Source of the DNA: a virus
Length of the DNA stretch: 64,000 bases
Virus record (IMG/VR): IMGVR_UViG_3300010885_011343
Coordinates: 29,879 to 93,878 of that record
Strand: one strand, 5' to 3'
The translations under genes were made by a program, and so were the position numbers. This document shows positions 32,111 through 47,733 of the stretch, one piece after another. How positions within the stretch are numbered: position 1 is the stretch's first letter; each line of letters begins with the position of its first letter. The notes beneath the pieces were generated by a model, which saw only the letters and a program-made list of their open reading frames with translations, was not told the origin of the DNA and did not search any database.

Positions 32111-33251
32111 TATATTCAACTTCGTTGTCGGTTAATTCTGGATATATCGGTAAACTTAATTCTGTTCTACAAAAAGATTCCCCATATGGGTATGCGCCCA
32201 ATTGGCTTAAGAATTGTGTGTGCGGGTTGCAGGGCAGTTCGTTGAGCGGTGTTGAATAATGTATTTTGGTATCAATGCCGCGGTGTTCTAAGTTGCTTTT
32301 AACTTGGTTTCTAACTGGCAAAAATACTTGGTCACGGTGGGTTCTATTAAAAGCAAAAGAATCATCGATCCAAATTGGAAATTTATGCCAGGCGTGTTCT
32401 ATATCATTGCTGGTCTCCGTCACTCGTACGTGGGGCCGTAGGCGTTCACAGTAATATTCGGCAATTTGTTGTCGACGTTGTTGCCAAGTGTCAAAGTACT
32501 TTAATTTAACAAGCATCTGAGCGCAGTCTGACTCACTCATTTTACTATTAGTTCCGGTACTGATATGACCGTCGTCTTTACCATTGTCTCTTAAGTTGCG
32601 TACAGATTCTGCAATTTTCCAGTCGTCTGTAAGCAACATACCACCAGATCCATAGTTGGGTAAATTTTTAGTAGGATCAAAACTAAGAACACTAACATCG
32701 CCTAGCTTACCAGATGGGGTATCTTTGTAATAAGCGCCAAAACTTTGTGCGGCATCTTCGATGACAAATAGTTCATCATTGTTAAAGAACTCGTTGATAA
32801 GGCGCATACGATCAAAGTCAACTATGTTACCAAATAAGTTAACATACATCAACCCGCCAATTTTGTGTGTCCTAGGATGAAACGTTAATGTTTCTAAATC
32901 TATTAGACCGTGTTTGTCAACGTCACAGTAAACAGGATCATTGTTGGCCATAAGCACACTATTAGTAGTGGCAGCAAAACTAACAGTAGGAATAATAATC
33001 CTATCCTCTTTTAAGTCTGCGGCTATCTGTGCAAAGATTAATGCTTGGGTGCAACTATTAACAGCAAATGCATAGTCCCTGTGGCACCTTGCGGCCATTA
33101 GTGTTTCAAATAGTTTAGTCTTTTCGCCATCGAGTACTTGGCCGCTGGCGTAAACCTCATCGGCAGAATTGAGAAGTTCTTCTCGTAAATTTTCGTACTG
33201 TCTTTTCAGACCAAAGAACGGAACTTTCACTTTGCAATTTTTTGTTGCCAA
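32043..33251 (-). CDS. DegT/DnrJ/EryC1/StrS-type sugar aminotransferase
   Basis: 402 residues, PLP-dependent fold type I. Asp166 in VIEDAAQSFGA would bind the pyridine nitrogen and Lys195 in SFDPTKNLPNYGSGG would form the Schiff base. The C-terminal YPYGESFCRTELSLPIYPEL is typical of the family, which transaminates keto-sugars on nucleotides to make amino-sugars. It overlaps the upstream SDR gene by 25 bases, so the two are coupled. The C-terminal 15-20 residues overlap antiparallel with the + strand gene. Confidence 0.9.
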   Translation of the reverse strand: MATKNCKVKVPFFGLKRQYENLREELLNSADEVYASGQVLDGEKTKLFETLMAARCHRDYAFAVNSCTQALIFAQIAADLKEDRIIIPTVSFAATTNSVLMANNDPVYCDVDKHGLIDLETLTFHPRTHKIGGLMYVNLFGNIVDFDRMRLINEFFNNDELFVIEDAAQSFGAYYKDTPSGKLGDVSVLSFDPTKNLPNYGSGGMLLTDDWKIAESVRNLRDNGKDDGHISTGTNSKMSESDCAQMLVKLKYFDTWQQRRQQIAEYYCERLRPHVRVTETSNDIEHAWHKFPIWIDDSFAFNRTHRDQVFLPVRNQVKSNLEHRGIDTKIHYSTPLNELPCNPHTQFLSQLGAYPYGESFCRTELSLPIYPELTDNEVEYITEAVIDCIKTGTDRSTTPSHS

Positions 33252-34204
33252 TACGGGCTAGTGCTCAGCCAATCGTAGTAGTGTTGAAACCCTTCTTCTA
33301 CATCTACTTTGGGTGAGAATCCAAAGTCATTGCGAGCGGCATCGATGTTTAAAGCGCCACGGCTAGGAAAGTCTGCATCTTTATCTCGCACATTGATATT
33401 GCCCTGGCCTACAACTTTAACAGCAAGCTCGGCAGCTTCAAGTAGTGTTCTGCTATGCGACTTGGTGATGTTATAAGTCTTATTTTCTGTGTTATCACTG
33501 AGTGCGGCTGCTACAATACCATCGGCAGCATCATCAACATAGGTAAAGTCCAGTGTTTCATTGGCACCATTTACGTTTAACGTGCCGCCTCGCATTGCGG
33601 TAAGCATAAACTTAGCAATAACTCTATCCTCTACATCCAACGGTCCATACACAGCACTGGGACGAATAATAGTGTAAGCAAGATTATCTCGGCGTGCATA
33701 GTCTTTAACCAGCCATTCACCAGCTAGCTTCATAATGCCATATTGACCTTGTGGGTTGCACACTGCATCTTCTGTAACATCGTCAGTGAAGTCTCCGTAG
33801 ACCATTGAGCTACTGATGTAGATAAACTTTCTTGTTTCGTATTTCTTTGACGATTCTAACAGGTTAATCAACCCTTCGCTCATAACACGACTACCCCAGG
33901 CTGGATTAGCATTGACAACTTTTTGTCTAGGGAAGCTGGCCATATGAATAACAATTTCAGGCTCGTGCAGTGCAAACGCCCAGTCTACGTTAGCAGCCAG
34001 TGATATATCAATAGGATATACCCACGGGTTGGACATATCAATTTTCTTTGTACGCTCTACCATAAGGTAGTTGAGTTCTTCCTGATCAACAATACCATAG
34101 TTAGTGCGTATATCTAGGATAGATACTTCGTGTCCTAGTTGTTGTAGGCGTGATACAACATTATGCCCTATTAGGCCCATTCCGCCAGTTACTAAAATTT
34201 TCAT
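33227..34204 (-). CDS. NAD-dependent sugar epimerase/dehydratase (extended SDR)
   Basis: 325 residues. The Rossmann motif GGMGLIG is at residues 7-13. FIYISSSMVYGD and QYGIMKLAGE supply the Ser/Tyr-x-x-x-Lys catalytic group, and IIRPSAVYGP is the usual sugar-binding strand. It acts on a nucleotide sugar, probably in the same pathway as the overlapping aminotransferase. The start overlaps the thyA stop by ATGA. Which sugar it handles cannot be told. Confidence 0.85.
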   Translation of the reverse strand: MKILVTGGMGLIGHNVVSRLQQLGHEVSILDIRTNYGIVDQEELNYLMVERTKKIDMSNPWVYPIDISLAANVDWAFALHEPEIVIHMASFPRQKVVNANPAWGSRVMSEGLINLLESSKKYETRKFIYISSSMVYGDFTDDVTEDAVCNPQGQYGIMKLAGEWLVKDYARRDNLAYTIIRPSAVYGPLDVEDRVIAKFMLTAMRGGTLNVNGANETLDFTYVDDAADGIVAAALSDNTENKTYNITKSHSRTLLEAAELAVKVVGQGNINVRDKDADFPSRGALNIDAARNDFGFSPKVDVEEGFQHYYDWLSTSPYWQQKIAK

Positions 34205-35127
34205 ACAGCCATCTCTGCTTTAATTGCATCGTGCGACACATAGTTTTCTAATTTAATATCATCCATTGTGAACTTGGTGATATCTCTAATCTCGGGATTC
34301 AGCCACAGCGTTGGTAACGCATATGGTGTACGTGCTAACTGCTCTTTAACTTGTTCTACGTGATTTGAGTAGATGTGTGCATCGCCTAGCACGTGAACAA
34401 ACTCTCCAACGTCTAAATCGCACACTTGAGCAATCATTGATGTCAGCAATGAATAGCTGGCAACATTGAACGGTACACCCAGGAACATATCACAACTGCG
34501 TTGATACATTTGGCAACTTAATCTATTACGACCATTGGGTACTTTTTGCACATAAAACTGAGCAAGAACGTGACAAGGTGGCAAAGCCATATCTTGTAGT
34601 TCAATGGCATTCCAGGCAGACAATATATGCCTACGTCCGTGCGGATCTCGTTTGATGCCTTCAACAAGATTCTTTAGCTGATCAATTTCTACTTTTTGTA
34701 TGCCGCCTTGGACACTGTAGTAATTGCCAAACTCATCTTTAATGCTACCTGATTTAACTTCCTTAATGCCGCGCCAGTTGCGCCACTGTACACCGTAAAT
34801 GCGACCCAGGTCACCTTTAAATTTTGACTTAGGTACCCAGTAAGGCGCTGTGGCATTGTCGGACCAGATGGTTGTCTTTTCAGACTGTCTGCTACCATAT
34901 AAAATCTCTCGCAGACGATTTTCGTCCCCCGACCCTTCAATAAACCACAGCAATTCTGATACAACACTACGCCAGGCCAGCTTCTTTGTAGTAACTGCCG
35001 GGAATCCTTCTTGCAGGTTGTATCTTTGTTGCATTCCAAAATAACTAATGGTACCAACACCAGTCCTATCGTCTGTTGTGGTACCATTCTGTAATACGTA
35101 ATTTAGTGCTTCTAAGTATTGATTCAT
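34201..35127 (-). CDS. thyA: Thymidylate synthase
   Basis: 308 residues, methylates dUMP with methylene-tetrahydrofolate. Visible motifs are DRTGVGT, the catalytic Cys in LPPCHVLAQFYV near residue 185, the phosphate-binding QRSCDMFLGVPFNVASY, and HVLGDAHIYSNH. All key residues look intact. An insertion near residues 100-150 (FKGDLGRIYGVQWRNW) is the family's normal active-site loop. It supplies dTMP for phage DNA and is translated with the downstream SDR gene through an ATGA overlap. Confidence 0.97.
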   Translation of the reverse strand: MNQYLEALNYVLQNGTTTDDRTGVGTISYFGMQQRYNLQEGFPAVTTKKLAWRSVVSELLWFIEGSGDENRLREILYGSRQSEKTTIWSDNATAPYWVPKSKFKGDLGRIYGVQWRNWRGIKEVKSGSIKDEFGNYYSVQGGIQKVEIDQLKNLVEGIKRDPHGRRHILSAWNAIELQDMALPPCHVLAQFYVQKVPNGRNRLSCQMYQRSCDMFLGVPFNVASYSLLTSMIAQVCDLDVGEFVHVLGDAHIYSNHVEQVKEQLARTPYALPTLWLNPEIRDITKFTMDDIKLENYVSHDAIKAEMAV

Positions 35128-35136
35128 TTAATGCTA

Positions 35137-35152
35137 ACCTATAATTATAGGT
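35137..35152. promoter_or_regulatory. 16-bp perfect palindrome before thyA
   Basis: ACCTATAATTATAGGT is a perfect palindrome lying 10 bases before the thyA ATG and overlapping the stop of the upstream gene. It contains TATAAT on the - strand, but no convincing -35 box lies 17 bases upstream. It could be an operator or a symmetrical promoter core. Confidence 0.45.
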
Positions 35153-35486
35153 CCTTAAGAAAGTTATCAGTAATTGGTTGAACCAGTTTGGCAACATCAT
35201 CGATGTTGACATAAAAGTCAACATCATTGATGATGTGGTCCAGTGCAGTTAGTTTTTGTTCTAACATTTGCTCTATGTCATCCGGGCTATAGCCCTCGGC
35301 TAATAGTTCTTTTATGCTAATGTCAACTGCGGTGCCATCGAAAAGATTAACAGTAATAGATTCTAGCACCGTTACCGGAACTTCGCGTTTTTCAACGTCT
35401 TTTAAAATCTTTTCCCACTTTTCTCTAGCAGTGACATTAAGCCGCTTTAACTTTGACCGCTTTTTTCTTTGTGGTTTTTCCGACAT
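35145..35486 (-). CDS. Hypothetical protein with basic N-terminus
   Basis: 113 residues. The first 17 residues are strongly basic (KPQRKKRSKLKRL); the rest is acidic and helical (GYSPDDIEQMLEQKLTALDH). Its first 50 bases overlap the end of the upstream gene in another frame, and both frames encode Lys-rich sequence there. No other start codon is available between the overlap and the conserved-looking body, and no Shine-Dalgarno precedes the ATG. Function unknown. Confidence 0.65.
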   Translation of the reverse strand: MSEKPQRKKRSKLKRLNVTAREKWEKILKDVEKREVPVTVLESITVNLFDGTAVDISIKELLAEGYSPDDIEQMLEQKLTALDHIINDVDFYVNIDDVAKLVQPITDNFLKDL

Positions 35487-36117
35487 TTGTTGTAGTTGTA
35501 GTTGGATCTAGGCTTGCGGCCTCAGACATAAGACGCTCTGCCTCTGCTAACATTGTAGCGGCATTCTTCTTCATCATTTCTGCTTGGGCAACACGACTAC
35601 GTGCAATATCGGAATCGCTTAACACACCATTGGCTGATGCTTGTGGCATAGCGGCTGGCTGAGTTCTGCTACTTGGAGGAACACCCACTTCTTGTTGTTC
35701 AACTTTGCGCTTCTTACCAGTTAAACCTTTGTTAGCATCTAACTCGGCAAGTCGCTTAATGGCTTCGTCACCTTTTTTCATTTCATTTAAGATGCTGTTC
35801 AATTCGTCCAAGCGCACAGTGGCAGACGGAGTAGGAGTCATAATAATTTGATTATTAGCCACCTTCTTGATTAAACCGTTCTTGTGCAATGCTTCCAGGC
35901 AGTTAATACCGTCGGGCATCATATTTCTAAACAATGCATCTGCAAAACTATCGGCCTGTTGTCCAACTGGGCTTTCTAGCACTGTCATAACTGAATCGTG
36001 ATAGATTCTAGGCAGCAAATCACTGTAGACTAATAGTGTCATATGATCTTCGCCCGGTACTTCTCTATATAATACGACTACTTTCTTTTCGCCGTGTCTA
36101 CCAATATGTTTTAACAT
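35437..36117 (-). CDS. Conserved phage hypothetical protein, coiled-coil C-terminus
   Basis: 226 residues. The N-terminal 95 residues form a compact domain (KKVVVLYREVPGEDHMTLLV, SDLLPRIYHDSVMTVLES). A helical, charged segment, a Pro/Ser/Gln-rich linker and a coiled-coil follow, with a basic Lys-rich tail. I recall similar proteins of unknown role in T4-like marine phages. The start lies 2 bases after the upstream stop. Confidence 0.7.
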   Translation of the reverse strand: MLKHIGRHGEKKVVVLYREVPGEDHMTLLVYSDLLPRIYHDSVMTVLESPVGQQADSFADALFRNMMPDGINCLEALHKNGLIKKVANNQIIMTPTPSATVRLDELNSILNEMKKGDEAIKRLAELDANKGLTGKKRKVEQQEVGVPPSSRTQPAAMPQASANGVLSDSDIARSRVAQAEMMKKNAATMLAEAERLMSEAASLDPTTTTTNVGKTTKKKAVKVKAA

Positions 36118-36119
36118 AA

Positions 36120-36359
36120 TTACTCCTTGGGGGGTTCGGTTGGTGTTTCTTCTTCGCCGGGCATTTTAACTGCACCAGTTGAAACTAAAAATGCGTACAG
36201 GCGATCATACAGGCCGCCCACTGAACTCATTTCGTCTGCTCTAAATGCACCACGTGTGGCGCAGGTTCTTACTACTTGGAGCACATTGACTAAGTCAGCA
36301 ATATTTAAATTTGGGTTTTTTTGCTCTTCGGTTGAAGAGGTTGTGTTATCATCACTCAT
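36120..36359 (-). CDS. Small conserved phage protein (ATRGAFRADEMS type)
   Basis: 79 residues with acidic low-complexity ends and a helical core, LVNVLQVVRTCATRGAFRAD followed by EMSSVGGLYDRLYAF. This core recurs in small proteins of T4-like marine phages; function unknown. Its ribosome binding site GGAG is inside a 13-bp hairpin directly upstream, suggesting translational control. Confidence 0.7.
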   Translation of the reverse strand: MSDDNTTSSTEEQKNPNLNIADLVNVLQVVRTCATRGAFRADEMSSVGGLYDRLYAFLVSTGAVKMPGEEETPTEPPKE

Positions 36360-36364
36360 TGAAA

Positions 36365-36399
36365 ATCTCCGTTAAATCGTTAAAGTATTTAACGGAGAT
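36365..36399 (-). promoter_or_regulatory. 13-bp hairpin that sequesters the ribosome binding site of the 36359 gene
   Basis: Arms ATCTCCGTTAAAT and ATTTAACGGAGAT pair perfectly around a 9-nt loop. On the - strand transcript the GGAG of the 3' arm is the Shine-Dalgarno of the gene starting at 36359 and is fully base-paired. The UUUC after the stem also fits a weak terminator for the upstream gene; both roles are possible. Confidence 0.65.
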
Positions 36400-36422
36400 A
36401 TAGTATCAGATAATTTTTTTTC

Positions 36423-36722
36423 TTACCAGTCGTAGCTGGTTACATTGATATTCGGAAGAAACAATCCAAAATAGCTAGCTTCTTCGTGCCGTTCAAAAGC
36501 GGCAACCTTGTGCATAGTTAAGCTAGATCCGGGAGATTCTGGGTTGGGTAAAAAGACATCACCTATGTAAAATCTACCTGAAAGATGTTCGTGTACCCAA
36601 TCCGAAATACTCTTGACGTTGGTACGCAGATCAAATGTAACCTGTATAAAATGCGGCGGACAATATTCCATCTGCCTTAGGCCAAAGACAGACAACGGAT
36701 TAACCTCACCGTATTTTAGCAT
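36423..36722 (-). CDS. Hypothetical protein
   Basis: 99 residues, mixed alpha/beta, with FIQVTFDLRTNVKSISDWVH, GRFYIGDVF and LTMHKVAAFERHEEASYFGL. No membrane segment or known motif was recognised. It lies 6 bases after the coiled-coil gene upstream and begins a group of small genes ahead of the hairpin-controlled one. Confidence 0.65.
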   Translation of the reverse strand: MLKYGEVNPLSVFGLRQMEYCPPHFIQVTFDLRTNVKSISDWVHEHLSGRFYIGDVFLPNPESPGSSLTMHKVAAFERHEEASYFGLFLPNINVTSYDW

Positions 36723-36728
36723 AACATC

Positions 36729-36983
36729 TTACTCGTAGATTCTAATATTGAGTTCTTGATTTTCACCAATTGCAGGAACTACAACACGGCTCTTAAGTTG
36801 TTCTTCTGCGGCTTCTCGGAAGCTGGTCACCAGGTGAAACTGCTTGGTGATTTCCGCAATCTCTACCGAGCGTGACAAGTCATCAAGAGCTTGTTCTCGG
36901 GCCAAAAGGCGCACTTGAAGATCATCGATGATTTTACGAGCTTCGGTGATTTTTTTAACTTCTTTGGGATTGATTGGTTCCAT
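36729..36983 (-). CDS. Small coiled-coil protein
   Basis: 84 residues, almost wholly helical with heptad-like Leu/Ile spacing (ITEARKIIDDLQVRLLAREQ). ATG 36983 is chosen because it follows the upstream stop by 2 bases and has a GGA 7 bases before. The ATG at 36995 and the TTG at 37004 are in frame and would overlap the upstream gene. Function unknown. Confidence 0.6.
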   Translation of the reverse strand: MEPINPKEVKKITEARKIIDDLQVRLLAREQALDDLSRSVEIAEITKQFHLVTSFREAAEEQLKSRVVVPAIGENQELNIRIYE

Positions 36984-36985
36984 AA

Positions 36986-37270
36986 TTAAATCCATTTTAA
37001 ACAAAACAATGATAGTGCTTGATCATCTATTAGGTAGATAAAACAAGGTCCATCTAAGGAGTTTCCAGTAACGTGCCAAGCCCATTGCGAATTGAAATGA
37101 TAGGCCACCTGTGAATCTCGCTCACAGCCCGCCCCCCAAGTTTCCCAACACCAAGTACGGATCTTATTGAACTCTTCAATCCTGTATTGTTGGTGTCCTG
37201 CAATTTCTGCACGATGTTTAAAGTGCTGGTGTCCTGCAAAACGTTTATCTAAGCCTTGCAAGAAAATCAT
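36986..37270 (-). CDS. Hypothetical Trp/His/Cys-rich protein
   Basis: 94 residues, rich in Trp, His and Cys (IRTWCWETWGAGCERDSQVA, NSQWAWHVTGN). It overlaps the upstream VWA gene by ATGA and is expected to be co-translated with it. No known motif; the aromatic-rich body suggests a small beta domain. Confidence 0.6.
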   Translation of the reverse strand: MIFLQGLDKRFAGHQHFKHRAEIAGHQQYRIEEFNKIRTWCWETWGAGCERDSQVAYHFNSQWAWHVTGNSLDGPCFIYLIDDQALSLFCLKWI

Positions 37271-38553
37271 TTCTTGCCCTTGGCAGCTTCTTCATAATGG
37301 GCCCAAATGCCAAACTCGGGCGTAGCTTCTGGGTTGCTTTTGATAACCCAAACGGTATCGCAGTAGTCTTGCACTTGCTCTGGGCTCCAACCAAAGAAGC
37401 AAAAGTCTGTAAACATAATCAACTTCTTGGGCTCAATGTCGTTTTCTTTAAGGTATTCCCAAACGCAATGAGGGTCAGTACCGCCGCCGCCACCGGGCTC
37501 GTAACTAGTAATATCCTCTGCAGAGTCCGGGCTGTAGTCTGCAGGATTGTAGACTTCAGTGTCCCAAGTAATAATATGCACCTTGTAGTCATCATACATA
37601 TCCATAATACCTTTGACCTCGCTTAGGAACAGCTTAAGGTCATCGTTGCTAATGGAGCCTGAAGTGTCAATGGCCACGCAAATATCGATGGTCTGTGCAT
37701 TCTTCATTCCAGGCAAGATAGCATCCATATGCCAGCCTCGACGGCTAGGACGGGTCCAGCTATAGTCGTTCTTAATAATGCTTTGGATCTGTTGTTGCAA
37801 CAGCTCTCTCCAATTAACCACAGGAGCTGTCAAATCCTTGATCATTCTTTTAATGTTGCCAGGCACGTTGCCTGCACCTGCGGCCTCGGCTGCCGCTAAT
37901 ACAGCTTCTTTAATCTCGTCTCGGATAGCTTTCTTTTCTTCTTTGCTCAAACGTGGTCGGCCATTGTTGCCTTCTTTGTTGCCATTGCCATCGTTGTCGC
38001 CATCGTCGTCACCTTCTTCATCGCCATCAAGGTGCTCGTCGAGCACTTGCTCCAAAAGCTTCTGGACGTCAATTTTACTTGCGTTCTTGTACAGGTCGTC
38101 GTAGACTTCCTCGGCACTCCAACCTTGGTACTTGTTATTGTACAGGATTGGCACTTTGGTAATCTTGTCACCAATCTTGTGCTCAATTAAGTCTGCGTTG
38201 ACACAATAGTCGTCGGCAATGTTCCACAGGCGGGGCTCACGGTCGCCTCGACGTCCCATATGGTCATAGACCACGTGCAGGACTTCGTGTCCAAACAAGA
38301 ACTCGCACTCTTTAAGACTTAGGCGGTTAATGAATTCGCTATTGTAAAAGAAGTGACGGCCTTCTGTAGCCGCAGTAGGGCACCAGGCGTCGGCGTTTTG
38401 TATAATAAGGCGGGTGGCCAAGTTACCAAAGAAAGGAGCCTTGAGCAAGAGTCCAACACGAGCGGTGATCAATTTTTCTCGTGCCGCGATGTCCACGCGA
38501 GGATTTGTTACTGTGACAACTTTGCTTTTTTCTGATAAAGTACTATCGCTCAT
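37267..38553 (-). CDS. VWA-like metallopeptidase-family protein (DUF2201 type)
   Basis: 428 residues. The N-terminal domain contains HEVLH at residues 89-93 with a further His98, the zinc-peptidase-like signature of the DUF2201 family. An acidic Asp/Gly/Asn-rich linker follows near residues 175-200. The C-terminal VWA-like domain has a MIDAS motif DTSGSIS near residue 295. The gene follows a MoxR-type ATPase, the usual partner of VWA proteins in metal insertion or remodelling. It has its own promoter, whose -35 overlaps the terminator of the MoxR gene. Confidence 0.85.
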   Translation of the reverse strand: MSDSTLSEKSKVVTVTNPRVDIAAREKLITARVGLLLKAPFFGNLATRLIIQNADAWCPTAATEGRHFFYNSEFINRLSLKECEFLFGHEVLHVVYDHMGRRGDREPRLWNIADDYCVNADLIEHKIGDKITKVPILYNNKYQGWSAEEVYDDLYKNASKIDVQKLLEQVLDEHLDGDEEGDDDGDNDGNGNKEGNNGRPRLSKEEKKAIRDEIKEAVLAAAEAAGAGNVPGNIKRMIKDLTAPVVNWRELLQQQIQSIIKNDYSWTRPSRRGWHMDAILPGMKNAQTIDICVAIDTSGSISNDDLKLFLSEVKGIMDMYDDYKVHIITWDTEVYNPADYSPDSAEDITSYEPGGGGGTDPHCVWEYLKENDIEPKKLIMFTDFCFFGWSPEQVQDYCDTVWVIKSNPEATPEFGIWAHYEEAAKGKK

Positions 38554-38576
38554 ATCTGCTCCTTAGTAATGTATAT

Positions 38577-38605
38577 ATTATAGCATAAAAAAATAACCCG
38601 GACAA
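38577..38605 (-). promoter_or_regulatory. Sigma70-type promoter for the VWA gene, -35 in terminator loop
   Basis: TTGTCC at 38605-38600, a 17-base spacer that contains the T tract of the upstream terminator, and TATAAT at 38582-38577 with an extended TGC in front. An AAGGAG site follows before ATG 38553. Confidence 0.75.
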
Positions 38606-38618
38606 GAGCCGGGCTATT
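38587..38618 (-). terminator. Rho-independent terminator after the MoxR gene
   Basis: A stem of AATAGCCCGG against CCGGGTTATT (one mismatch), a 7-base loop, then seven T on the - strand. It lies 5 bases after the MoxR stop. Part of the loop and stem is also the -35 box of the VWA promoter. Confidence 0.8.
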
Positions 38619-38622
38619 CATT

Positions 38623-39750
38623 TTACTTGGCACTTGCGGCTACGATGTACTTACCAAAACGCTGATGGAACTCGTTAAAGTTCTTGAGCTTGCCTGGCAC
38701 AAAGGGCAGGTTGTAAGTAGTCAACGCAACACGGATACCCATTACCACAAGCTCTGTGGTAAAATTGTCCATAACGTAGCGCAGGAAGTTGTCGCTTTGG
38801 GTGTACCAGTCTGACAGACCTTTGGTGTCCTTGCCATCCTTGGCAACCTTGGTGTAGTTGTCTTGGAGCTCGTAGCACAGGCTAATAGTCAAAGAGTACA
38901 TAGCAGAGATCTCTTTAGTCTTAAGATCTTTAACTTTGCCTGACAGGATGTCTGTAGGGTTGGGCATATTGCCCGACACTTTGCGGTGAGCCATAAACTT
39001 AACAGCAAGGCCTTCACCAATGGTACCTGCAATAAGGTCCATATTAGTAGAGTCGTCGCCATCTTCCAACAGCTCAGACACAAAGGTCCAAGAGCGCGGT
39101 GTGGCAAAACTACGACCCGAGCTACGGGGGTCAAAGTCGTACAGGTCCTGCTTGGCAAAGCTAATGTAACCTACCACGTCTTTGTGGATACGGTTCTTAA
39201 CTGCCCAGGTCTGCCAGGCTTCAAAGTCCGAACGCATTTCCAAGTGGATAAAGCGGTTAGCCAGTGGGCTGGGCATACGATAAGAAATACCCTTGTCGCT
39301 TTCTCTGTTACCTGCGGCAACGACAACAACGTTGTCTGGAAGTGTGTATTTTCCAACACGACGATTCAAAATAAGTTGATAGGCACTGCCTTGCACTGCC
39401 GGTGCGGCCTGGTTCATCTCGTCCAGGAACAAGACAATAATAGGATACTGCTCAGACATTTCTGCGTCGGGCAGTTCAATTGGAGGAGCCCAATCCATTT
39501 TGCCGTTGTCTTTATTGTAGAATGGGATGCCACGTAAATCTGTGGGTTCCATCTGACCTAAGCGTAGATCGATTGTAATGCCGCCTAGCTCTTCTGCAAT
39601 TTCTGCAACAAGTTCGGACTTGCCAATGCCGGGAGGACCCCAGAGGAATAAGGGGCGTTGCTTTTTAAACGCACGAAGAATTGAACGACGGGCCTCAACA
39701 GAGGTTACTGTACGGGCTTCACTAACACTTGCACTTGCTGTCTTTGCCAT
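38623..39750 (-). CDS. MoxR-type AAA+ ATPase
   Basis: 375 residues. Walker A GPPGIGKS is at residues 38-45, Walker B IVLFLDEMNQA near 105-115, and sensor-type VVVVAAGNRESDKG with YRMPSPLANRFIHLEM follows, as in MoxR/CbbQ ATPases. It probably remodels the VWA partner encoded next, but the terminator and separate promoter between them allow separate control. It has its own TTGTGT-N17-TATAAT promoter and a good AGGAG site. Confidence 0.9.
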   Translation of the reverse strand: MAKTASASVSEARTVTSVEARRSILRAFKKQRPLFLWGPPGIGKSELVAEIAEELGGITIDLRLGQMEPTDLRGIPFYNKDNGKMDWAPPIELPDAEMSEQYPIIVLFLDEMNQAAPAVQGSAYQLILNRRVGKYTLPDNVVVVAAGNRESDKGISYRMPSPLANRFIHLEMRSDFEAWQTWAVKNRIHKDVVGYISFAKQDLYDFDPRSSGRSFATPRSWTFVSELLEDGDDSTNMDLIAGTIGEGLAVKFMAHRKVSGNMPNPTDILSGKVKDLKTKEISAMYSLTISLCYELQDNYTKVAKDGKDTKGLSDWYTQSDNFLRYVMDNFTTELVVMGIRVALTTYNLPFVPGKLKNFNEFHQRFGKYIVAASAK

Positions 39751-39779
39751 TGTTGGCTCCTTTGTTAAACAATACTTCT

Positions 39780-39808
39780 ATTATACGAGAAAACAATACC
39801 CCACACAA
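39780..39808 (-). promoter_or_regulatory. Sigma70-type promoter for the MoxR gene, -35 in terminator loop
   Basis: TTGTGT at 39808-39803 lies entirely in the loop of the upstream terminator. A 17-base spacer made of the terminator arm and T tract follows, then TATAAT at 39785-39780. AAAGGAG follows before ATG 39750. Confidence 0.7.
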
Positions 39809-39824
39809 CCGTCGGGGTATTGTT
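39790..39824 (-). terminator. Rho-independent terminator after the 39832-40353 gene
   Basis: An 11-bp perfect stem built on CAATACCCC / GGGGTATTG with an 11-base loop and TTTT on the - strand. It lies 8 bases after the stop of the upstream gene and shares its loop with the MoxR promoter. Confidence 0.8.
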
Positions 39825-39831
39825 GTTGCTA

Positions 39832-40353
39832 TTATGCAACGTCTTCTGTCTGTGCGGCCAACGCTTCGTCGAGACGCACAAGGCCACACTTGACCAAGCC
39901 CTCAACATCGTACACCGAGCCGGCGTACCACACACCGTCCTTCATAATATAGTAGTACTCGGCAAAGCACAAGTCTACCTGTTCCAAGAACTCTGCGAAT
40001 GTGTGGGCTACCTTGAACTCCGTGTCAGTCTCGCCGCGATCACGACCGTAGAAAGTAGAGTAGCCTGCTTCCTGTGCCGCTTCGTGCGAAGCTTTGGCTT
40101 CTGCTTCAAGGCGATCGTTTTCTTCGTCGCTTAATTCCGAGCTCCGTACAGTGAACTGGCTAAAGGCGTGCTTCTCACCAATGTTGGGACGCAGGCTGGA
40201 CAGATCGCCAAGTGCTACTAGGTTGTTGGCTTTGGCACTGTTATAGTGCTCTTGCAGAATGGCGCCATTGTACGACAGATAGCCGTCCCAGTGGCAGTAA
40301 ACACTTTTAACAGTGTCGCCGTGCATAACCCCGATGCGTGAACGTGTACCCAT
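39832..40353 (-). CDS. Conserved phage protein (MGTRSRIGV type)
   Basis: 173 residues beginning MGTRSRIGVMHGDTVKSVYC followed by HWDGYLSYNG, a signature I recall from many large-phage proteins of unknown function. A charged helical middle (ENDRLEAEAKASHEAAQEAG) and an aromatic end (FAEYYYIMKDGVWY) follow. It is transcribed alone, between its own promoter and a strong terminator, which suggests early expression. Confidence 0.8.
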   Translation of the reverse strand: MGTRSRIGVMHGDTVKSVYCHWDGYLSYNGAILQEHYNSAKANNLVALGDLSSLRPNIGEKHAFSQFTVRSSELSDEENDRLEAEAKASHEAAQEAGYSTFYGRDRGETDTEFKVAHTFAEFLEQVDLCFAEYYYIMKDGVWYAGSVYDVEGLVKCGLVRLDEALAAQTEDVA

Positions 40354-40384
40354 TTGCTAACTCCTTTTTGCTTACTATGCTAGT

Positions 40385-40413
40385 ATTATAACACACTTCG
40401 AATTTTTGGGCAA
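40385..40413 (-). promoter_or_regulatory. Sigma70-type promoter, family copy 1
   Basis: TTGCCC at 40413-40408, 17-base spacer, TATAAT at 40390-40385. The segment from the spacer end through -10 to the AAAAAGGAG ribosome site is nearly identical to the promoter at 40831-40859. Confidence 0.85.
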
Positions 40414-40420
40414 CCGTTTT

Positions 40421-40801
40421 TTAATCGGCGCCAAAAGTTGTTGCTAAAAACTCACGGCATTGTGCTTCTGTGCGTTTAGTCACTACAACCTTGCCGCCCA
40501 TAAAGCCCACGAACAGATTGCGGTGTTCCACAAACTTGATCTCGCCATCTGCACCGGTATGCTTCTGACGCACAGGTGCTTTCTTGGCTACTACTTTTTT
40601 AGTAGTTTTTGCAGGAGCCTCTGCAGGCAGTTTTGGTTCTGTTTTGGCAACGGCACCGGTTAAGGGTGTATGCTTAAAACCGTGTTTGGCATCGTAGTTG
40701 GCCAGCTGGCGCTCGGTCATACCCCAAGTGTCCAAAAGACGCTTGACTTCTGTGCCGGGCAGTTGGTGCCAGTTAATACAAGTATCAGTCCAGTTTTTCA
40801 T
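40421..40801 (-). CDS. Hypothetical protein with basic linker
   Basis: 126 residues: an N-terminal helical domain (LPGTEVKRLLDTWGMTERQL), a Lys/Ala/Pro-rich linker, and a small C-terminal beta-alpha domain (LFVGFMGGKVVVTKRTEAQC). It is preceded by a consensus sigma70 promoter and AGGAG site. Composition suggests nucleic-acid contact; function unknown. Confidence 0.7.
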   Translation of the reverse strand: MKNWTDTCINWHQLPGTEVKRLLDTWGMTERQLANYDAKHGFKHTPLTGAVAKTEPKLPAEAPAKTTKKVVAKKAPVRQKHTGADGEIKFVEHRNLFVGFMGGKVVVTKRTEAQCREFLATTFGAD

Positions 40802-40830
40802 TGCTACTCCTTTTTGCTTACTATGCTAGT

Positions 40831-40859
40831 ATTATAACACAATTCGAACTTTTGGTCAA
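40831..40859 (-). promoter_or_regulatory. Sigma70-type promoter, family copy 2
   Basis: TTGACC at 40859-40854, 17-base spacer, consensus TATAAT at 40836-40831. The -35 box overlaps the TGA stop codon of the upstream gene. It shares the AAAAGTTCGAA-type spacer with copies 1 and 3. Confidence 0.88.
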
Positions 40860-41140
40860 CCGGGGTATTTTGGATACTTTGGACGCTTGGGGCAGAAAGG
40901 GCAATCGGCATCCTTGCAAACACCTTCCAACCAGGCGTTGCAAGGATCACAATAATTGCTGTCAAATTCGACATTATAACTGCGATAAGTGCCACAATGA
41001 AAACATCCAATATCCTCCTTAGGGTCAAACTGTAGCTTGACCTTGGGATTGGCTTTGCGACGACTAAGATTTGGATTGCGGTCGTGCGCCTCTGCTTTCA
41101 TTGTTGTGAGATACCCTCTACTATTTTCCCAACCATTCAT
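40856..41140 (-). CDS. Small zinc-ribbon-like protein
   Basis: 94 residues. Cys pairs IGCFHCGTY, SNYCDPCNAW, EGVCKD and ADCPFCPK suggest one or two zinc sites of ribbon type. ATG 41140 has GGGAG 7 bases upstream; the longer frame from 41170 is rejected. The Lys/Pro-rich end runs into the -35 box of the next promoter. Possibly a DNA- or RNA-binding early protein. Confidence 0.75.
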   Translation of the reverse strand: MNGWENSRGYLTTMKAEAHDRNPNLSRRKANPKVKLQFDPKEDIGCFHCGTYRSYNVEFDSNYCDPCNAWLEGVCKDADCPFCPKRPKYPKYPG

Positions 41141-41172
41141 AGTTTTTCTCCCTTTTAATTTGTAATACAATT

Positions 41173-41201
41173 ATTGTAACATCTTTCGGGCTTTTGGTCA
41201 A
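41173..41201 (-). promoter_or_regulatory. Sigma70-type promoter, family copy 3
   Basis: TTGACC at 41201-41196, 17-base spacer, TACAAT at 41178-41173. The spacer AAAAGCCCGAAAGATGT follows the same AAAAGnnCGAAnnnTGT pattern as copies 1 and 2. Confidence 0.82.
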
Positions 41202-41204
41202 CGA

Positions 41205-41243
41205 ATACCAAAGTAAATTTTAGGGTTATACCAAAGTAAATTT
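41205..41243. repeat. Tandem 16-bp direct repeat upstream of a promoter
   Basis: ATACCAAAGTAAATTT occurs at 41205-41220 and 41228-41243, exactly 23 bp apart and right upstream of the -35 box of promoter copy 3. The spacing, about two helical turns, suggests a regulator binding site. Confidence 0.7.
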
Positions 41244-41263
41244 CTTGTGGTTTTTACGCAACA

Positions 41264-41295
41264 CAAAGAAAAACCCGCCATTTTGACGGGTTTTT
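41264..41295 (-). terminator. Rho-independent terminator after the 41334 gene
   Basis: A 9-bp stem AAAAACCCG / CGGGTTTTT with a 9-base loop; the T-rich flank works in both directions. A TTTTTACGCAAC sequence is repeated on each side (41250-41261 and 41303-41314). The rest of the 41141-41333 gap is the promoter and 16-bp repeats. Confidence 0.8.
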
Positions 41296-41333
41296 GGTGT
41301 TGTTTTTACGCAACTGTTACTAAAGTATTACTC

Positions 41334-41894
41334 TTAGACTATGCCAAAAAATGCGTAGTGCTGTGGCAAATCCCAAGTGTTTGGATCCACTATAGGTTGC
41401 CCGTTGTAGGTCTCAAATTTGCTATTAAGTACAGAGTACCTTTTAAAGAAACGCCAATTGTCTGGACTGGTCTTAGACAATCCATTATCTTGCAAAACTT
41501 TGTCACTGTGTTTCTTAATAAGGCAGGTTGGTGTATTTAATGCTTGGTTGATGGTCAGGCGCCCCTCAATTAACATATCCCGAACACTGCTAGCCGGAAT
41601 TACGTGTTCAAAAATACTTTCACCTTTACGCACTCCTACCTCTATATAATGACTTTTAATTTTACCCCTAATAGAGTAATCGTGGTAGCGACGGATATGG
41701 TGGTCAATGCTGTCTCGCAATAACCTAGCCCGCATATCTTCTTCGAAGACTGTGCCACGATAGATTTCTAGTAGACGTTCTAGTTCCTCTGTAGTAAATG
41801 CAAGACACTGGCGGTATGCTTTGTCATTGCGTTTAACACCTTTGTTACGCTCGGGCTTTCTATAGCCCTCAACAAGTTCTTGAAAGGTTGACAT
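41334..41894 (-). CDS. Conserved phage hypothetical protein
   Basis: 186 residues. An Arg/Glu-rich helical N-terminus (TEELERLLEIYRGTVFEEDM) and IFEHVIPASSVRDMLIEGRL followed by NTPTCLIKK suggest an HNH-like or related small nuclease fold, but the full metal-binding set is not seen. ATG 41894 lies one base after the upstream stop. It ends before a strong terminator. Confidence 0.65.
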   Translation of the reverse strand: MSTFQELVEGYRKPERNKGVKRNDKAYRQCLAFTTEELERLLEIYRGTVFEEDMRARLLRDSIDHHIRRYHDYSIRGKIKSHYIEVGVRKGESIFEHVIPASSVRDMLIEGRLTINQALNTPTCLIKKHSDKVLQDNGLSKTSPDNWRFFKRYSVLNSKFETYNGQPIVDPNTWDLPQHYAFFGIV

Positions 41895-41895
41895 T

Positions 41896-43101
41896 TTAGT
41901 ACAAATCTTTCTTGGCTGGTTGGAAGGCAGTGTCAATACGCAAGGTGGGCTTACGACCAGTCCAAGTCTTGTTCAATTGATACCACAAAAAGGTACCACC
42001 GTTGCGCCAGTTCTTAGTAAAACTAATACGTGTCGGTGCCTGTACTGCACCGGCCCAATACTTGGTATGCCAGGACTTATAAGCATCGCGCACTTTGTCC
42101 CAAAATGCACTAGCTTCGTGGAAGTCAGCACCAAACAGACTGTGCAAGTGATTACCCAAGTCCACTACTTCCTCGTCAGTATAGTCAATGCCGTCTTTCT
42201 TGGCCATATCAAACCAAGCACACATAATCTCAATCTCCTGACTAGCAATAGGACGAGCCACTGGAAAGGTAGTAGTGTACAAGGCAAACTTACGGATAAT
42301 ATCAGAGCTATAGTGATTGAGCTCTTGCATACGACCAATGGCGCCGGGCATATGAGTATCACCAAACTTGTCGGCTGTGACAAACAAATCTGCTTGTTCT
42401 AGGTATTGTTGTTTGAGCTCTGCATCTACCCACGCCGGATTGGTGTTACCATCAATACGAACTCCGTAGATCATCTGCATCCAAAGATCAATTAAGTCCA
42501 ACAACTTCTTGCCAACATCGCTGTTTCCGCTGACAAAGTTTTCACGGATGTCTGCTTTCTTGCTTACTTTGTAAATGTTGACAGGGACCATTACGTCTTT
42601 GGGGTCTTGACCCAGGATTAATACTGCAATAACATAAAATGCCGCGGCAGTGTTCTGACCGTCCCAACTTGCATACAGTCCTCTTTTTCCTGTAGGGTAG
42701 TATTTAAAGTCTGAACTGTTACCAGTTACCTGATACACTTGTATAGGCATTGCCTGTACGTCACGAAAGTTGCTGACAATGTAAAAAACCCAATAGAGAA
42801 TTAACATACGTTGGATTGTGGTATCAATCAAGATGTCACTGAGTGGCATTTGAATAGATTCGACAATGTCTAGATCGGAGAACTTTTTAACATTGGGATA
42901 GCGTTTCTTGAAGTCGTTGATAGCTTTTTGTAGCTGACTTCTCATACCGACTTGTTTCATAAGTGGCAATCCACTTATGGCCTGGTTAAATCGATCTTTA
43001 ATGTCTACAAAGATCGAATCGGTTTGCGAGTACCGAGAGTTTATCTGCGAAGCGTAAGAGGGTGCAGGTGCTTGTTTGAGCGCAAGATTTGATTTTGCCA
43101 T
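41896..43101 (-). CDS. Large hypothetical protein with DGQNT motif
   Basis: 401 residues. LYASWDGQNTAAAFYVIAVL resembles the DGQHR/DGQHT motif of ParB-like NTPase/nuclease folds and related phage proteins. Helical regions flank it, and the Trp-rich C-terminus has WHTKYWAGAVQAP. AGGAGG lies 7-8 bases before the ATG. The gene opens a new transcription unit after the terminator at 43158-43186. The ParB link is only motif-level. Confidence 0.6.
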   Translation of the reverse strand: MAKSNLALKQAPAPSYASQINSRYSQTDSIFVDIKDRFNQAISGLPLMKQVGMRSQLQKAINDFKKRYPNVKKFSDLDIVESIQMPLSDILIDTTIQRMLILYWVFYIVSNFRDVQAMPIQVYQVTGNSSDFKYYPTGKRGLYASWDGQNTAAAFYVIAVLILGQDPKDVMVPVNIYKVSKKADIRENFVSGNSDVGKKLLDLIDLWMQMIYGVRIDGNTNPAWVDAELKQQYLEQADLFVTADKFGDTHMPGAIGRMQELNHYSSDIIRKFALYTTTFPVARPIASQEIEIMCAWFDMAKKDGIDYTDEEVVDLGNHLHSLFGADFHEASAFWDKVRDAYKSWHTKYWAGAVQAPTRISFTKNWRNGGTFLWYQLNKTWTGRKPTLRIDTAFQPAKKDLY

Positions 43102-43157
43102 AATATGGCCTCCTAATTGTACTTGGCAAAGTTTTTAATATACAGTGCCAATATGGT

Positions 43158-43186
43158 AAAAAGTAGTAGACAGAATTGTCTACTAC
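43158..43186 (-). terminator. Rho-independent terminator ending the lysis-gene operon
   Basis: A perfect 10-bp stem GTAGTAGACA / TGTCTACTAC with a 4-base loop, followed by TTTTT on the - strand, in the 122-base gap after the 43224-43583 gene. Confidence 0.85.
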
Positions 43187-43193
43187 AGGGCTA

Positions 43194-43212
43194 AGTGTAC
43201 AGGAGGTACACT
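43194..43212. other. Second hairpin next to the terminator
   Basis: A perfect 7-bp stem AGTGTAC / GTACACT with a 5-base loop (AGGAG on +, CTCCT on -). It sits between the stop of the 43224 gene and the terminator, so the operon ends in two stacked hairpins; it may protect the 3' end of the transcript. Confidence 0.6.
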
Positions 43213-43223
43213 AATCTGTCAAC

Positions 43224-43583
43224 CTAGGTGATGCGAATGTTGTTTTTTTGCATCCTGTCGCTATACAGGCAACGGCCACGCTTTCGCACCAATTCGGCCA
43301 TACCCTGGGGATCGCTTTCAAAAGATGCTTTGATATCTTCTTGGCCAACATTGGCATCAACGTCAATGGCATAAATTTCATAATGTCTTTGCGAATTAAA
43401 TTTAGCCCTGAGCATAATCATATTGGCAATCTGATTAGGATTAGATTTGTTGTCTACGCCACGTAAGATATCAAAGGTTTTTTGACGATCCATATCAGAA
43501 ATGTTAATACAGGCTTCAAGTCCGTGCATATCCCAACTAAGTAGATATGTTTCGACATCGTAGTTTACTTCACTTTTTTTCAT
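43224..43583 (-). CDS. Conserved phage hypothetical protein
   Basis: 119 residues; VETYLLSWDMHGLEACINIS and MIMLRAKFNSQRHYEIYAID are distinctive blocks of a small alpha/beta protein I recall only as hypothetical in large phages. ATG 43583 overlaps the SleB-type gene stop (ATGA). It is the last gene before the double hairpin terminator. Confidence 0.7.
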   Translation of the reverse strand: MKKSEVNYDVETYLLSWDMHGLEACINISDMDRQKTFDILRGVDNKSNPNQIANMIMLRAKFNSQRHYEIYAIDVDANVGQEDIKASFESDPQGMAELVRKRGRCLYSDRMQKNNIRIT

Positions 43584-44140
43584 AAAGATATCCAACTGTT
43601 TTTTGCTCGATTATAAAACTTGTGGCGACCAATTTGCACAATATAATGATTCTGATCTACCCACTTAGGATCTTTAATATAATCTGCGTGATAGAATAAA
43701 CTGCGCTCTAGGCCAGAAACTCTCCAACCATTGACAGCACGTTGAGCAATGGTTTCGCACTCTTGCCATAGTTTGGCATTGGGCTTGGGTAAGGTCTTCA
43801 TTCTAGTCCAGCTAAACTGTGATTTAGAATAAACTACTGCACAGATACTGTTACCCCAATATCCATTGGATACTCTGTTAAGGGTAATATTTGCCACAGC
43901 ATACTTGCCTGCGGCAGATTCGACGCCAGCCTCATAATAGATATTACGAGTCAGACATTCTATGTCTTTTTTACTGGCCTGTATCTTAGTTTCTCTATGC
44001 ACCAAATCGCCAATTTGGTCAATTTGGTTTTGCATTTGATCCAAGCAGCTGGCAATACGGTCAAGGTAGTTAACAATGTAGCCAAGACCGGAGACCACCG
44101 CCACGGCTGTGGCAGTCAATACAACGTTTTGTACTTTCAT
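43580..44140 (-). CDS. SleB/CwlJ-type cell-wall hydrolase, membrane-anchored (candidate endolysin)
   Basis: 186 residues. Residues about 7-27 are a hydrophobic N-terminal anchor or signal (VVLTATAVAVVSGLGYIVNY). From about residue 62 the Hydrolase_2 pattern follows: LTRNIYYEAGVESAAGKYAV with the candidate catalytic Glu in YYEA, then CAVVYSKSQFSWT. Such enzymes cleave the glycan strand of peptidoglycan. The anchor suggests a SAR-type or exported endolysin, and it is the only clear lysis gene in the window outside the spike lysozyme domain. It starts at the upstream stop (TAATG). Confidence 0.85.
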   Translation of the reverse strand: MKVQNVVLTATAVAVVSGLGYIVNYLDRIASCLDQMQNQIDQIGDLVHRETKIQASKKDIECLTRNIYYEAGVESAAGKYAVANITLNRVSNGYWGNSICAVVYSKSQFSWTRMKTLPKPNAKLWQECETIAQRAVNGWRVSGLERSLFYHADYIKDPKWVDQNHYIVQIGRHKFYNRAKNSWISL

Positions 44141-44418
44141 TACCGTGCGATTTTAAACAGTTTACCGGCCGTAGACGCTGGCTTTCCCTTAGATTTTGGT
44201 TTCGTGTCAGCAGGGAACTCTTGATTTAAATAATGCTCGATTAGCGATTGGGAAGTCATTGACTTGACACTAACGTCGTTGAAAGCGTAGAACAATACAG
44301 GGCACTTGCCCCAGGTGCCATTGCGATAAAACTCTGCAACGTATCGACGGTGCTCTGCATTTTTAGGATTAAAAATCACAGTGGGTCGACGATTCACATC
44401 AAGTAAGGTTTGGCTCAA
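44140..44418 (-). CDS. Hypothetical protein, TTG start
   Basis: 92 residues; AEHRRYVAEFYRNGTWGKCP is the clearest block, followed by a Lys/Pro/Ser-rich tail. The start is TTG at 44418, supported by AGGAG 7-8 bases upstream and no nearby ATG. A TATAAT at 44452-44447 inside the end of the upstream gene lacks a good -35 box. Function unknown. Confidence 0.65.
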   Translation of the reverse strand: MSQTLLDVNRRPTVIFNPKNAEHRRYVAEFYRNGTWGKCPVLFYAFNDVSVKSMTSQSLIEHYLNQEFPADTKPKSKGKPASTAGKLFKIAR

Positions 44419-44443
44419 TTTAAAACTCCTGGTTGGTTGAAAA

Positions 44444-44893
44444 TTAATTATACACTAAATTACCGCGGTGGGCTTTTTTCTTGTACATTAGTTGATTAAG
44501 AGACTCAAGTATTTGATTGACTGGAACGCTGTGGTGCTTATAGCCATCCATAACACATTCTTTATAATGGTCCGAGGGAAGGTCGTCTTTAACTCCGGGA
44601 TTCATATAATACACTTCTGCTTCAACTAGCTGGCCCTGGTGTTCCACTGACACTGTGCAACTGTTATAAAAATTTGGATAACCCTCTAGTCTGTCCAGTG
44701 CTACGAGACAGTCTTCGGTGATATCCCATAGCACCCCATCAACCACAGATCCCGGTTCTTCGACAACATCGGCACACCCAGCAAATCGAAAACGCCAATT
44801 GGGTAGCTTGGCTAATCCAAGACAAACGGCCTTAGGACAGCGACTGGCCATTTCGTCTCTATTGGTGTTCATACCATATGCAAAATACAACAT
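44444..44893 (-). CDS. Gamma-glutamylcyclotransferase-like protein (AIG2/GGCT fold)
   Basis: 149 residues. YFAYGMNTN at residues 3-11 replaces the usual YGSN substrate loop, and Glu70 in LDRLEGYPNFY is the family's catalytic acid. Members turn gamma-glutamyl amino acids into 5-oxoproline or open gamma-glutamylamine links. In phages the substrate is unknown; a role in amine-modified bases or in stress is possible. The start overlaps the upstream stop (TAATG). Confidence 0.85.
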   Translation of the reverse strand: MLYFAYGMNTNRDEMASRCPKAVCLGLAKLPNWRFRFAGCADVVEEPGSVVDGVLWDITEDCLVALDRLEGYPNFYNSCTVSVEHQGQLVEAEVYYMNPGVKDDLPSDHYKECVMDGYKHHSVPVNQILESLNQLMYKKKAHRGNLVYN

Positions 44894-45270
44894 TACTGAT
44901 GGGCCTCTAAATTAGTTAAGTAAGTTTCAAGATCGTTACCGTGCAATTGTAACATAATTGCGGTGACTTCGTCAAATATAACCACATTCTTAATGTGGGC
45001 AATATAATACGGGTAATGTATGTGGCGTTCTAACAATAGTAGTACTTTGGGTGTAATACTTTTTGGCAGTGTAAACTTGTAATTGCTCAGTTTCAACTTT
45101 TCGGATAAGAACTTGTACCCGGGCTTGGTTAGCCGCATACTCAAGTGGTTTGAAGGATTAAAGAATATTGACAGTCTGGCATCACCGCCCCAGACATCAA
45201 ACGGAAGTTCGGCACCTTGTTGCCTAAGTAACGCGATCCATTCTTCCTGATTAAGGGTAGATTTGATCAC
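44893..45270 (-). CDS. Hypothetical protein, GTG start
   Basis: 125 residues; mixed alpha/beta with FDVWGGDARLSIFFNPSNHL, LEKLKLSNYK-like basic segments and LLLLERHIHYPYYIAHIKNV. The GTG start at 45270 overlaps the upstream gene by 20 bases and has only a weak ribosome site. No family recognised. Confidence 0.6.
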   Translation of the reverse strand: MIKSTLNQEEWIALLRQQGAELPFDVWGGDARLSIFFNPSNHLSMRLTKPGYKFLSEKLKLSNYKFTLPKSITPKVLLLLERHIHYPYYIAHIKNVVIFDEVTAIMLQLHGNDLETYLTNLEAHQ

Positions 45271-45538
45271 CGGCTTTAAGCAAGACTACAGTAAATTTCT
45301 CACTCTTGTACAGACTGTTTAATTTCTTGGCCAAGTTGATTGCGTGTCCGGGATTACTAAAGGAGACCTTTTTGTATTTTGGTCCGGGGTACGAGACAAG
45401 AATGTTGCTAGTTTTAAGATTTATGGGCTTGTTATCATAGAACACAGCCCAGATGCCTTCACTGTTTAAAACTTGGTCACATTTGTACGTAGTCTTATTA
45501 AGATGTTCTAAAATAACAGTTGGCTTTGGTCTTGACAT
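45251..45538 (-). CDS. Hypothetical protein, first gene of the lysis-gene operon
   Basis: 95 residues, beta-rich (KPINLKTSNILVSYPGPKYK). It follows a 60-base gap that contains a GATAAATA late-like box 22 bases before its ATG, so it probably begins a late transcript that runs through the SleB-type hydrolase to the terminator at 43158. Function unknown. Confidence 0.6.
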   Translation of the reverse strand: MSRPKPTVILEHLNKTTYKCDQVLNSEGIWAVFYDNKPINLKTSNILVSYPGPKYKKVSFSNPGHAINLAKKLNSLYKSEKFTVVLLKAGDQIYP

Positions 45539-45559
45539 AATATGCTCTCTCGATACATT

Positions 45560-45567
45560 TATTTATC
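45560..45567 (-). promoter_or_regulatory. Late-promoter-like box (GATAAATA) for the lysis-gene operon
   Basis: The octamer on the - strand is identical to that before gp6 and lies 22 bases before ATG 45538, nearly the same distance. It would allow late expression of the endolysin candidate although the surrounding module is early/middle type. Confidence 0.5.
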
Positions 45568-45598
45568 ACAATTTTATGCGTACTTAACTACTTTTGTC

Positions 45599-46063
45599 TT
45601 AGGCCAACCCAACTAATTTAGTAAGAGCCTCGGTTTCTGATTTGTAGGGTCCAAAATATGGATATCTATTTATTGTTATGCTTTTAGGGCAGAACTGGTT
45701 CTCCCAGTGATCATCTATTTTAACTACATAGTAACCAGCACAATAAAAGCTCTTACTTTTTGCGGCTTTGGTATAGAAAGGCAGTTTACGCCGTACATCG
45801 TAGAGCTCGTTGAACGGGGTACAATCCACTGGAAAATCGTAGATATTGTTGCTGTTATCTACAATTTTTTTGTCTTTTCCGCCTTTGTTTACACGGATAT
45901 TATACTTGGTGCTCAGTAGTTTAAAATTAACAAATTTTTCTCTGGCAGAACCTTTGACTAGAAAGACTCCGTCGGGCGATGCTTGGATGGTGGCAACTTT
46001 TTGACCACCATCCTCAACAATCCAAAATTTATTCTTGATAATTGGTTTAGCTTCTAGCATCAT
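45599..46063 (-). CDS. Hypothetical protein
   Basis: 154 residues, beta-rich with repeated strand-turn units (FWIVEDGGQKVATIQASPDG, YYVVKIDDHWENQFCPKSIT) and a final YFGPYKSETEALTKLVGLA that looks like a small DUF1508/SPOR-like ending. ATG 46063 overlaps the upstream stop by ATGA. No function can be given. Confidence 0.6.
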   Translation of the reverse strand: MMLEAKPIIKNKFWIVEDGGQKVATIQASPDGVFLVKGSAREKFVNFKLLSTKYNIRVNKGGKDKKIVDNSNNIYDFPVDCTPFNELYDVRRKLPFYTKAAKSKSFYCAGYYVVKIDDHWENQFCPKSITINRYPYFGPYKSETEALTKLVGLA

Positions 46064-46493: not shown

Positions 46494-46494
46494 A

Positions 46495-47702: not shown

Positions 47703-47733
47703 AGAGTAATAATAGCATATTACCCTGGGCTTG

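Follow-up and report, generated by a model that had tools for sequence, protein, structure and literature searches.

Two gene boundaries on the minus strand of an environmental phage genome, at which a terminator-like hairpin and a promoter occupy partly the same bases, raise the question whether such an element is one fused signal, a binding site for a regulatory protein, or an accident of base composition. The stretch of DNA analysed (the window, 64,000 nucleotides) comprises bases 29879–93878 of a 93,878-bp IMG/VR virus contig. Three genes, all on the minus strand, are concerned: a gene for a 173-aa phage protein (39832–40353; PHROG 1987, 9.5e-28), which element 1 would end; a gene for a MoxR-type AAA ATPase of 375 aa (38623–39750; PHROG 1297, 7.5e-97; Pfam AAA_5, 6.6e-08), which lies between both elements; and, downstream of element 2 and predicted to be started by it, a gene for a DUF2201 putative metallopeptidase with a VWA-like domain (428 aa, 37267–38553; Pfam PF13203, 6.8e-41, and PF09967, 1.4e-16). 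By blastn, the MoxR gene matched that of the Pseudomonas jumbo phage PA5oct and of related phages (66–67% over about 10% of the query); protein comparison gave hundreds of MoxR relatives in viral contigs, many of them 200–340 kb in size. Other signals were noticed in the window. Near-identical promoter-leader cassettes (TTGmCC...TGTGTTATAATACTAGCATAGTAAGCAAAAAGGAG) are present at 40390–40413 and 40836–40859 (minus strand), serving neighbouring genes as duplicated promoter units of the same region, and a perfect 13-bp hairpin, ATCTCCGTTAAAT...ATTTAACGGAGAT (36365–36399, minus strand), ends 4–5 nt upstream of the start codon in the gene at 36120–36359, whose ribosome site (GGAG) it would mask.

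Direct reading of the sequence showed for both elements a terminator-like hairpin on the minus strand, starting 4–8 nt beyond the upstream stop codon. The hairpin of element 1 (39792–39824, 7 nt past the stop of the 173-aa gene) has a perfect stem of 11 bp, formed by the 5' arm AACAATACCCC (39824–39814) and the 3' arm GGGGTATTGTT (39802–39792) around an 11-nt loop, GACGGTTGTGT (39813–39803). Its -35 hexamer, TTGTGT (39803–39808), lies wholly inside the loop, and the -10 hexamer TATAAT (39780–39785), separated from the 3' arm by TTCTCG, follows with a 17-nt spacer. Element 2 (hairpin 38592–38618) stands after the MoxR-like gene and was also listed by a terminator scan; the arms AATAGCCCGG (38618–38609) and CCGGGTTATT (38601–38592) enclose the loop CTCTTGT (38608–38602), and the hairpin continues into a T tract (TTTTT, to 38587), then ATGC and TATAAT. 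The -35 of this element, TTGTCC (38600–38605), is divided between the loop (TTGT) and the 3' arm (CC); its extended -10 is TGCTATAAT, with the hexamer at 38577–38582, a spacer again of 17 and a promoter scan score of 10/12 with TG. The terminator-promoter fusions with 17-nt spacers which a preliminary description had placed after the gene at 39832 and after the MoxR gene are thus present. Its statement that the -35 lies in the hairpin loop holds entirely for element 1, but in element 2 the last two bases of the hexamer belong to the stem, and TATAAT does not follow at once, as had been stated, but 4–5 nt after the T tract.

RNA folding energies were -18.1 kcal/mol (z -3.2) for element 1 and -17.0 kcal/mol (z -4.5) for element 2, with 0 of 200 shuffles as good in either case; Rfam families gave no match at gathering score in the region 33000–48000. 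The sequence features of an intrinsic terminator, i.e., a G+C-rich hairpin that closely follows a gene and leads into a T tract, are found in the elements, and so is the spacing of a sigma70 promoter, with hexamers 16–18 nt apart (17 in both). The -10 is perfect in both elements; the -35 is weak, agreeing with TTGACA in 3 of 6 positions in element 1 and in 4 of 6 in element 2.

A terminator tail rich in A+T might resemble a promoter by accident: high A+T content is common to T tracts and TATAAT, and element 1 has a poor -35. When the window was scanned for TTG, 17 nt and a -10 of at least 5/6, with a stem of 9 bp or more and a loop covering the -35, the matches were exactly two, elements 1 and 2, against a mean of 0.02 (maximum 1) in 100 dinucleotide shuffles; the remainder of the contig (29.9 kb) contained no further element by the same criteria. 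An accident is extremely improbable on these numbers, and it is already contradicted by conservation, since two relatives, L003 and L070, have kept the element at both positions.

In both of these relatives the gaps flanking MoxR contain the same fused element with compensated stem changes. The -35 before MoxR, TTGTGT in the window, reads TTGCAC in L003 and TTGACA in L070; the one after MoxR reads TTGTCC in L003 (spacer 18) and TTGACC in L070. For element 2, the stems are AATAGCCCGG/CCGGGTTATT in the window, AATACCCCGG/CCGGGGTATT in L003 and AATAACCCGG/CCGGGTTATT in L070, the fifth stem pair being G.T, C-G and A-T, respectively. A further relative (L317, record G005, with 76% MoxR identity) has an element 32 nt before the MoxR match, also with compensated stem changes. 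In L070, the hairpin upstream of MoxR folds weakly (-10.1 kcal/mol, z -1.4). Among farther MoxR relatives, L004–L009 and L015 have a terminator and then a separate promoter, others are without a hairpin, and in PA5oct, of all named phages the nearest by MoxR, the MoxR gene is followed by an ordinary terminator, with no fused element. Because distant relatives and PA5oct show these other layouts, the fusion is a trait of one branch at the MoxR locus.

One arm of the L070 element, AATAACCCGG, equals the half-site of the GajA (Gabija) nickase site AATAACCCGGTTATT, which is a 15-bp overlapping palindrome (PMC8136825), whereas the L070 arms are 11 nt apart; given this different site architecture, a link to GajA was rejected and the likeness is probably a coincidence. 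A separate observation concerns nine MoxR homologs (L024, L025, L030, L031, L056, L065, L069, L075, L079), which have no fused element and whose leader is complementary to their own 3' region. The complementary part of the leader is the ribosome site, often with the start codon too, and its partner lies within the first 100 nt past the stop. Leader and partner vary in concert from clade to clade, for example AGCCCTATGTC / GACATAGGGCT and CCCGTGACA / TGTCACGGG, and the longest match had a mean of 7.35 nt for 34 non-redundant loci, compared with 6.08 ± 0.19 (maximum 6.76) in 5000 permutations. This 3' stretch has the look of a 3'-UTR element that is antisense to the start of its own gene.

Viral contigs were scanned with a generalised form of the element, ACCC-N5-TTG-N3-GGGT-N(12-14)-TATAAT, in which spacers of 16–18 were allowed. 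The collections consist of fragments of uncultured phages and scan counts are lower bounds; the generalised element was present in at least 120 viral contig stretches. The spacer was 17 in 117 of the 128 distinct elements among the matches listed, which again speaks against an accident, and the -35 was TTGACA in 56 and TTGACT in 42 of these 128 listed elements. When the pattern was slightly relaxed, 34 matches were obtained from 50 whole records, and none with the reversed-pattern control; no match was found in T4-like RB49, Salmonella phage Munch or PA5oct. Several records contained 3–5 copies, sited between small tandem genes.

Hairpins centred on the -35 were also counted without regard to one particular stem. 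Among 196 promoters from the window and from unselected MoxR relatives (searched stems kept), 11 such hairpins were found, compared with 0.9 ± 1.1 in shuffles; in independent loci, from which elements of the searched pattern had been removed, there were 27, compared with 6.3 ± 1.8 expected. Unrelated stems occupy the same place in these loci, for example GGAAGGGCATTGC around TTGACA. BLAST of two elements against cultured phages yielded weak matches only, which led to Munch, without the element, and to cyanophage ACG-2014f, where GGGGGTT-GGCA-AACCCCC-TTTTT, with a stem different from that of the window, contains the -35 TTGGCA, followed after 17 nt by CATAAT.

The check proposed in the preliminary description, for further elements of this design, had a mixed outcome: the 93.9-kb contig contains no more of them, and there are many in relatives. 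The earlier suggestion that the same design, seen twice, points to selection gains from conservation in L003, L070 and G005, from the recurrence in other phages and from co-varying stems (see below). As judged from this recurrence, the same compact design is shared by numerous environmental phages, both related and unrelated, and is therefore real and selected. Another promoter type seen in these phages is itself a palindrome (L191:3818, L303, L315, L342:4788, L127:4194), whose arms are placed outside the -35 and across the extended -10, TAGCACAGCAAGTTGACA...ACTTGCTGTGCTATAAT.

Operator dyads may overlap promoters, e.g., those of the CIRCE/HrcA type, and the elements share with them an inverted repeat across the -35. 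A dimeric DNA-binding protein could read AATAACCC-N11-GGGTTATT across the -35 and control the promoter, with the RNA hairpin being incidental. A scan with free spacing (3–20), where 35 of the 111 distinct matches listed had exactly 11 nt between CCC and GGG, would fit such a protein; so would the mismatched arms or missing T tract of some matches with the -35 in the loop, and the stand-alone dyad AATAACCCTAC-N5-GTAGGGTTATT, which is strongly viral. The strict dyad (also written AATAACCCTA-N7-TAGGGTTATT) occurred in at least 84 viral stretches, compared with 10 in 84,980 bacterial and archaeal genomes. A point against fused terminators is that about half of the 89 non-redundant generalised elements among the matches listed have just ACCC/GGGT and 0–2 outer pairs, and some generalised elements lack a T tract, e.g., GGGTTTCCAAAAGACGC; with such short stems or without a T tract, they would make poor terminators. 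The excess of 11-nt spacing and the virus-biased dyad make an operator worth testing.

Several properties of the stems speak against an operator. The outer arms vary and yet stay complementary (aaag/cttt, aata/tatt, ctata/tatag), unlike a CIRCE/HrcA-type dyad, and hairpins with quite different, unrelated stems and loop lengths are found in the same place; the G-U pair of element 2 keeps the RNA stem, but breaks the symmetry of the DNA. In the 89 non-redundant elements among the matches listed, Watson-Crick pairs numbered 72 at the first outer pair (60.9 ± 3.0 expected), 51 at the second outer pair (39.5 ± 4.0) and 46 at the inner pair which uses the last -35 base (30.7 ± 4.2), and no co-variation was seen among these 89 when stem partners were shifted by one base; the co-variation is modest, and, since the sequences are partly related, its significance is overstated. 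The dyads also track stop codons and keep no single distance to a promoter. Among the matches listed, 48 of the 89 elements (54%) start no more than 20 nt past the upstream stop codon, compared with 73 of 307 other promoters of the same loci (24%), so that here, in contrast to the CIRCE/HrcA type, the position is tied to the stop codon.

An operator is unlikely in view of the stem co-variation, the unrelated stems in the same place and the closeness to stop codons, which favour a fused terminator and promoter. Together with the constancy of the spacer and the reversed control, these findings speak for fusion over both an operator and chance, and each element is probably a fused intrinsic terminator and sigma70-type promoter. 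An operator of a host was rejected separately, the strict dyad being found in just 10 stretches of 257 Gb of bacterial and archaeal genomes, with no common host or gene. The palindrome AATAACCCTAC-N5-GTAGGGTTATT is a recurrent feature of environmental phages in its own right (loci L093–L281, e.g., L127:3109–3135 and L207:3321–3347); in many cases a stop codon precedes it by no more than about 10 nt and a promoter lies downstream, and bacterial genomes hardly ever contain it.

From the sequence we infer termination by the hairpins, firing of the promoters and an insulating role, which could operate as follows. A polymerase coming from the upstream gene would pass the stop codon, make the hairpin immediately beyond it and be released in the T-rich stretch, which doubles as the promoter spacer. 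The overlapping -35/-10 pair would be bound by a host polymerase, either a separate one or the same, which would start the next gene, with the start predicted from the coordinates about 17–20 nt further on. The -35 would be placed in the loop because nowhere else in the hairpin are the bases exempt from the need to pair, and promoter and terminator could therefore overlap at almost no cost. Each gene would be its own transcription unit, and the terminator should shield the next promoter from occlusion by read-through; a releasing and an initiating polymerase would not be able to share the site simultaneously.

Many copies of promoter early stem-loops (PeSLs) are contained in plastic regions of the genomes of T4-like phages, where they mediate gene shuffling. 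They were reportedly described by Arbiol et al. in 2010 and by Comeau et al. in 2014 (Genome Biol Evol). The title of a reference cited in PMC4503421 calls them "Composite conserved promoter-terminator motifs". Like PeSLs, the elements combine a stem-loop terminator and a host-type promoter in one short intergenic unit, and as with PeSLs, cassettes are repeated between small tandem genes. The copy number is 2 in the contig of the window and up to 5 per record, between small genes, in other phages. In the first 50 kb of RB49, two clear cassettes were found, GGGCTATCC-TTCG-GGATAGCCC-TTTTT...TTGACA-16-TATAAT. In these two cases the -35 comes after the T tract, with the hairpin centre at -30 relative to the -35, whereas in the window the -35 is in the loop and the corresponding values are -2.5 to -3. 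The element would thus work like a PeSL, but differ from those of RB49 in that the promoter is shifted into the hairpin. RB49 (L404) also has promoters with a spacer hairpin between -35 and -10, at about 43031, 33335 and 25338 (minus strand), e.g., TTGACGGGGATCGCGAGATCCCCTATACT. No report of a -35 inside a terminator loop was found in the literature searched, the coverage of which was partial and does not prove absence.

Promoters close after terminators are known from bacteria, where reuse of the polymerase is possible (PMC6978380, PMC11347151), and 85% of the major terminators of E. coli have a start site no more than 1000 bp away (PMC11347151); in the elements described here, the same bases are shared by both signals. 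Recycling and re-initiation of E. coli RNA polymerase have been established in vitro, with demonstration in vivo lacking (PMC6978380, PMC11347151). By analogy, a link between termination and re-initiation at the elements is plausible. In its specific form, i.e., that the released polymerase does not leave the DNA but moves along it by about 20 nt and restarts, so that upstream transcription feeds the downstream gene, it is rather doubtful, and no experiment of this kind on a phage turned up in the literature searched. E. coli polymerase often remains on the DNA after intrinsic termination and re-initiates nearby, with an efficiency expected to vary with the distance between terminator and promoter (PMC6978380, PMC11347151), for which about 17–20 nt are predicted here; however, compactness alone, as space-saving insulation, accounts for the layout, and since re-initiation works over hundreds of base pairs, overlap is not required for it. 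Likewise unlikely would be a widespread phage module in which the shared bases either pass the terminating polymerase straight to the next promoter or let a bound polymerase exclude it; if this were true, termination and initiation at a gene boundary would be mutually dependent.

By annotation tools in which terminators and promoters are predicted separately, such fusions are not given as a single unit. With bases common to both signals, the element offers a natural test of the importance, in the cell, of polymerase recycling after termination, which has so far been seen only in vitro. The placement of a -35 in the sole unpaired part of a terminator hairpin shows to what extent phage gene boundaries can be compressed, and fusions of this kind may be common in aquatic phages.
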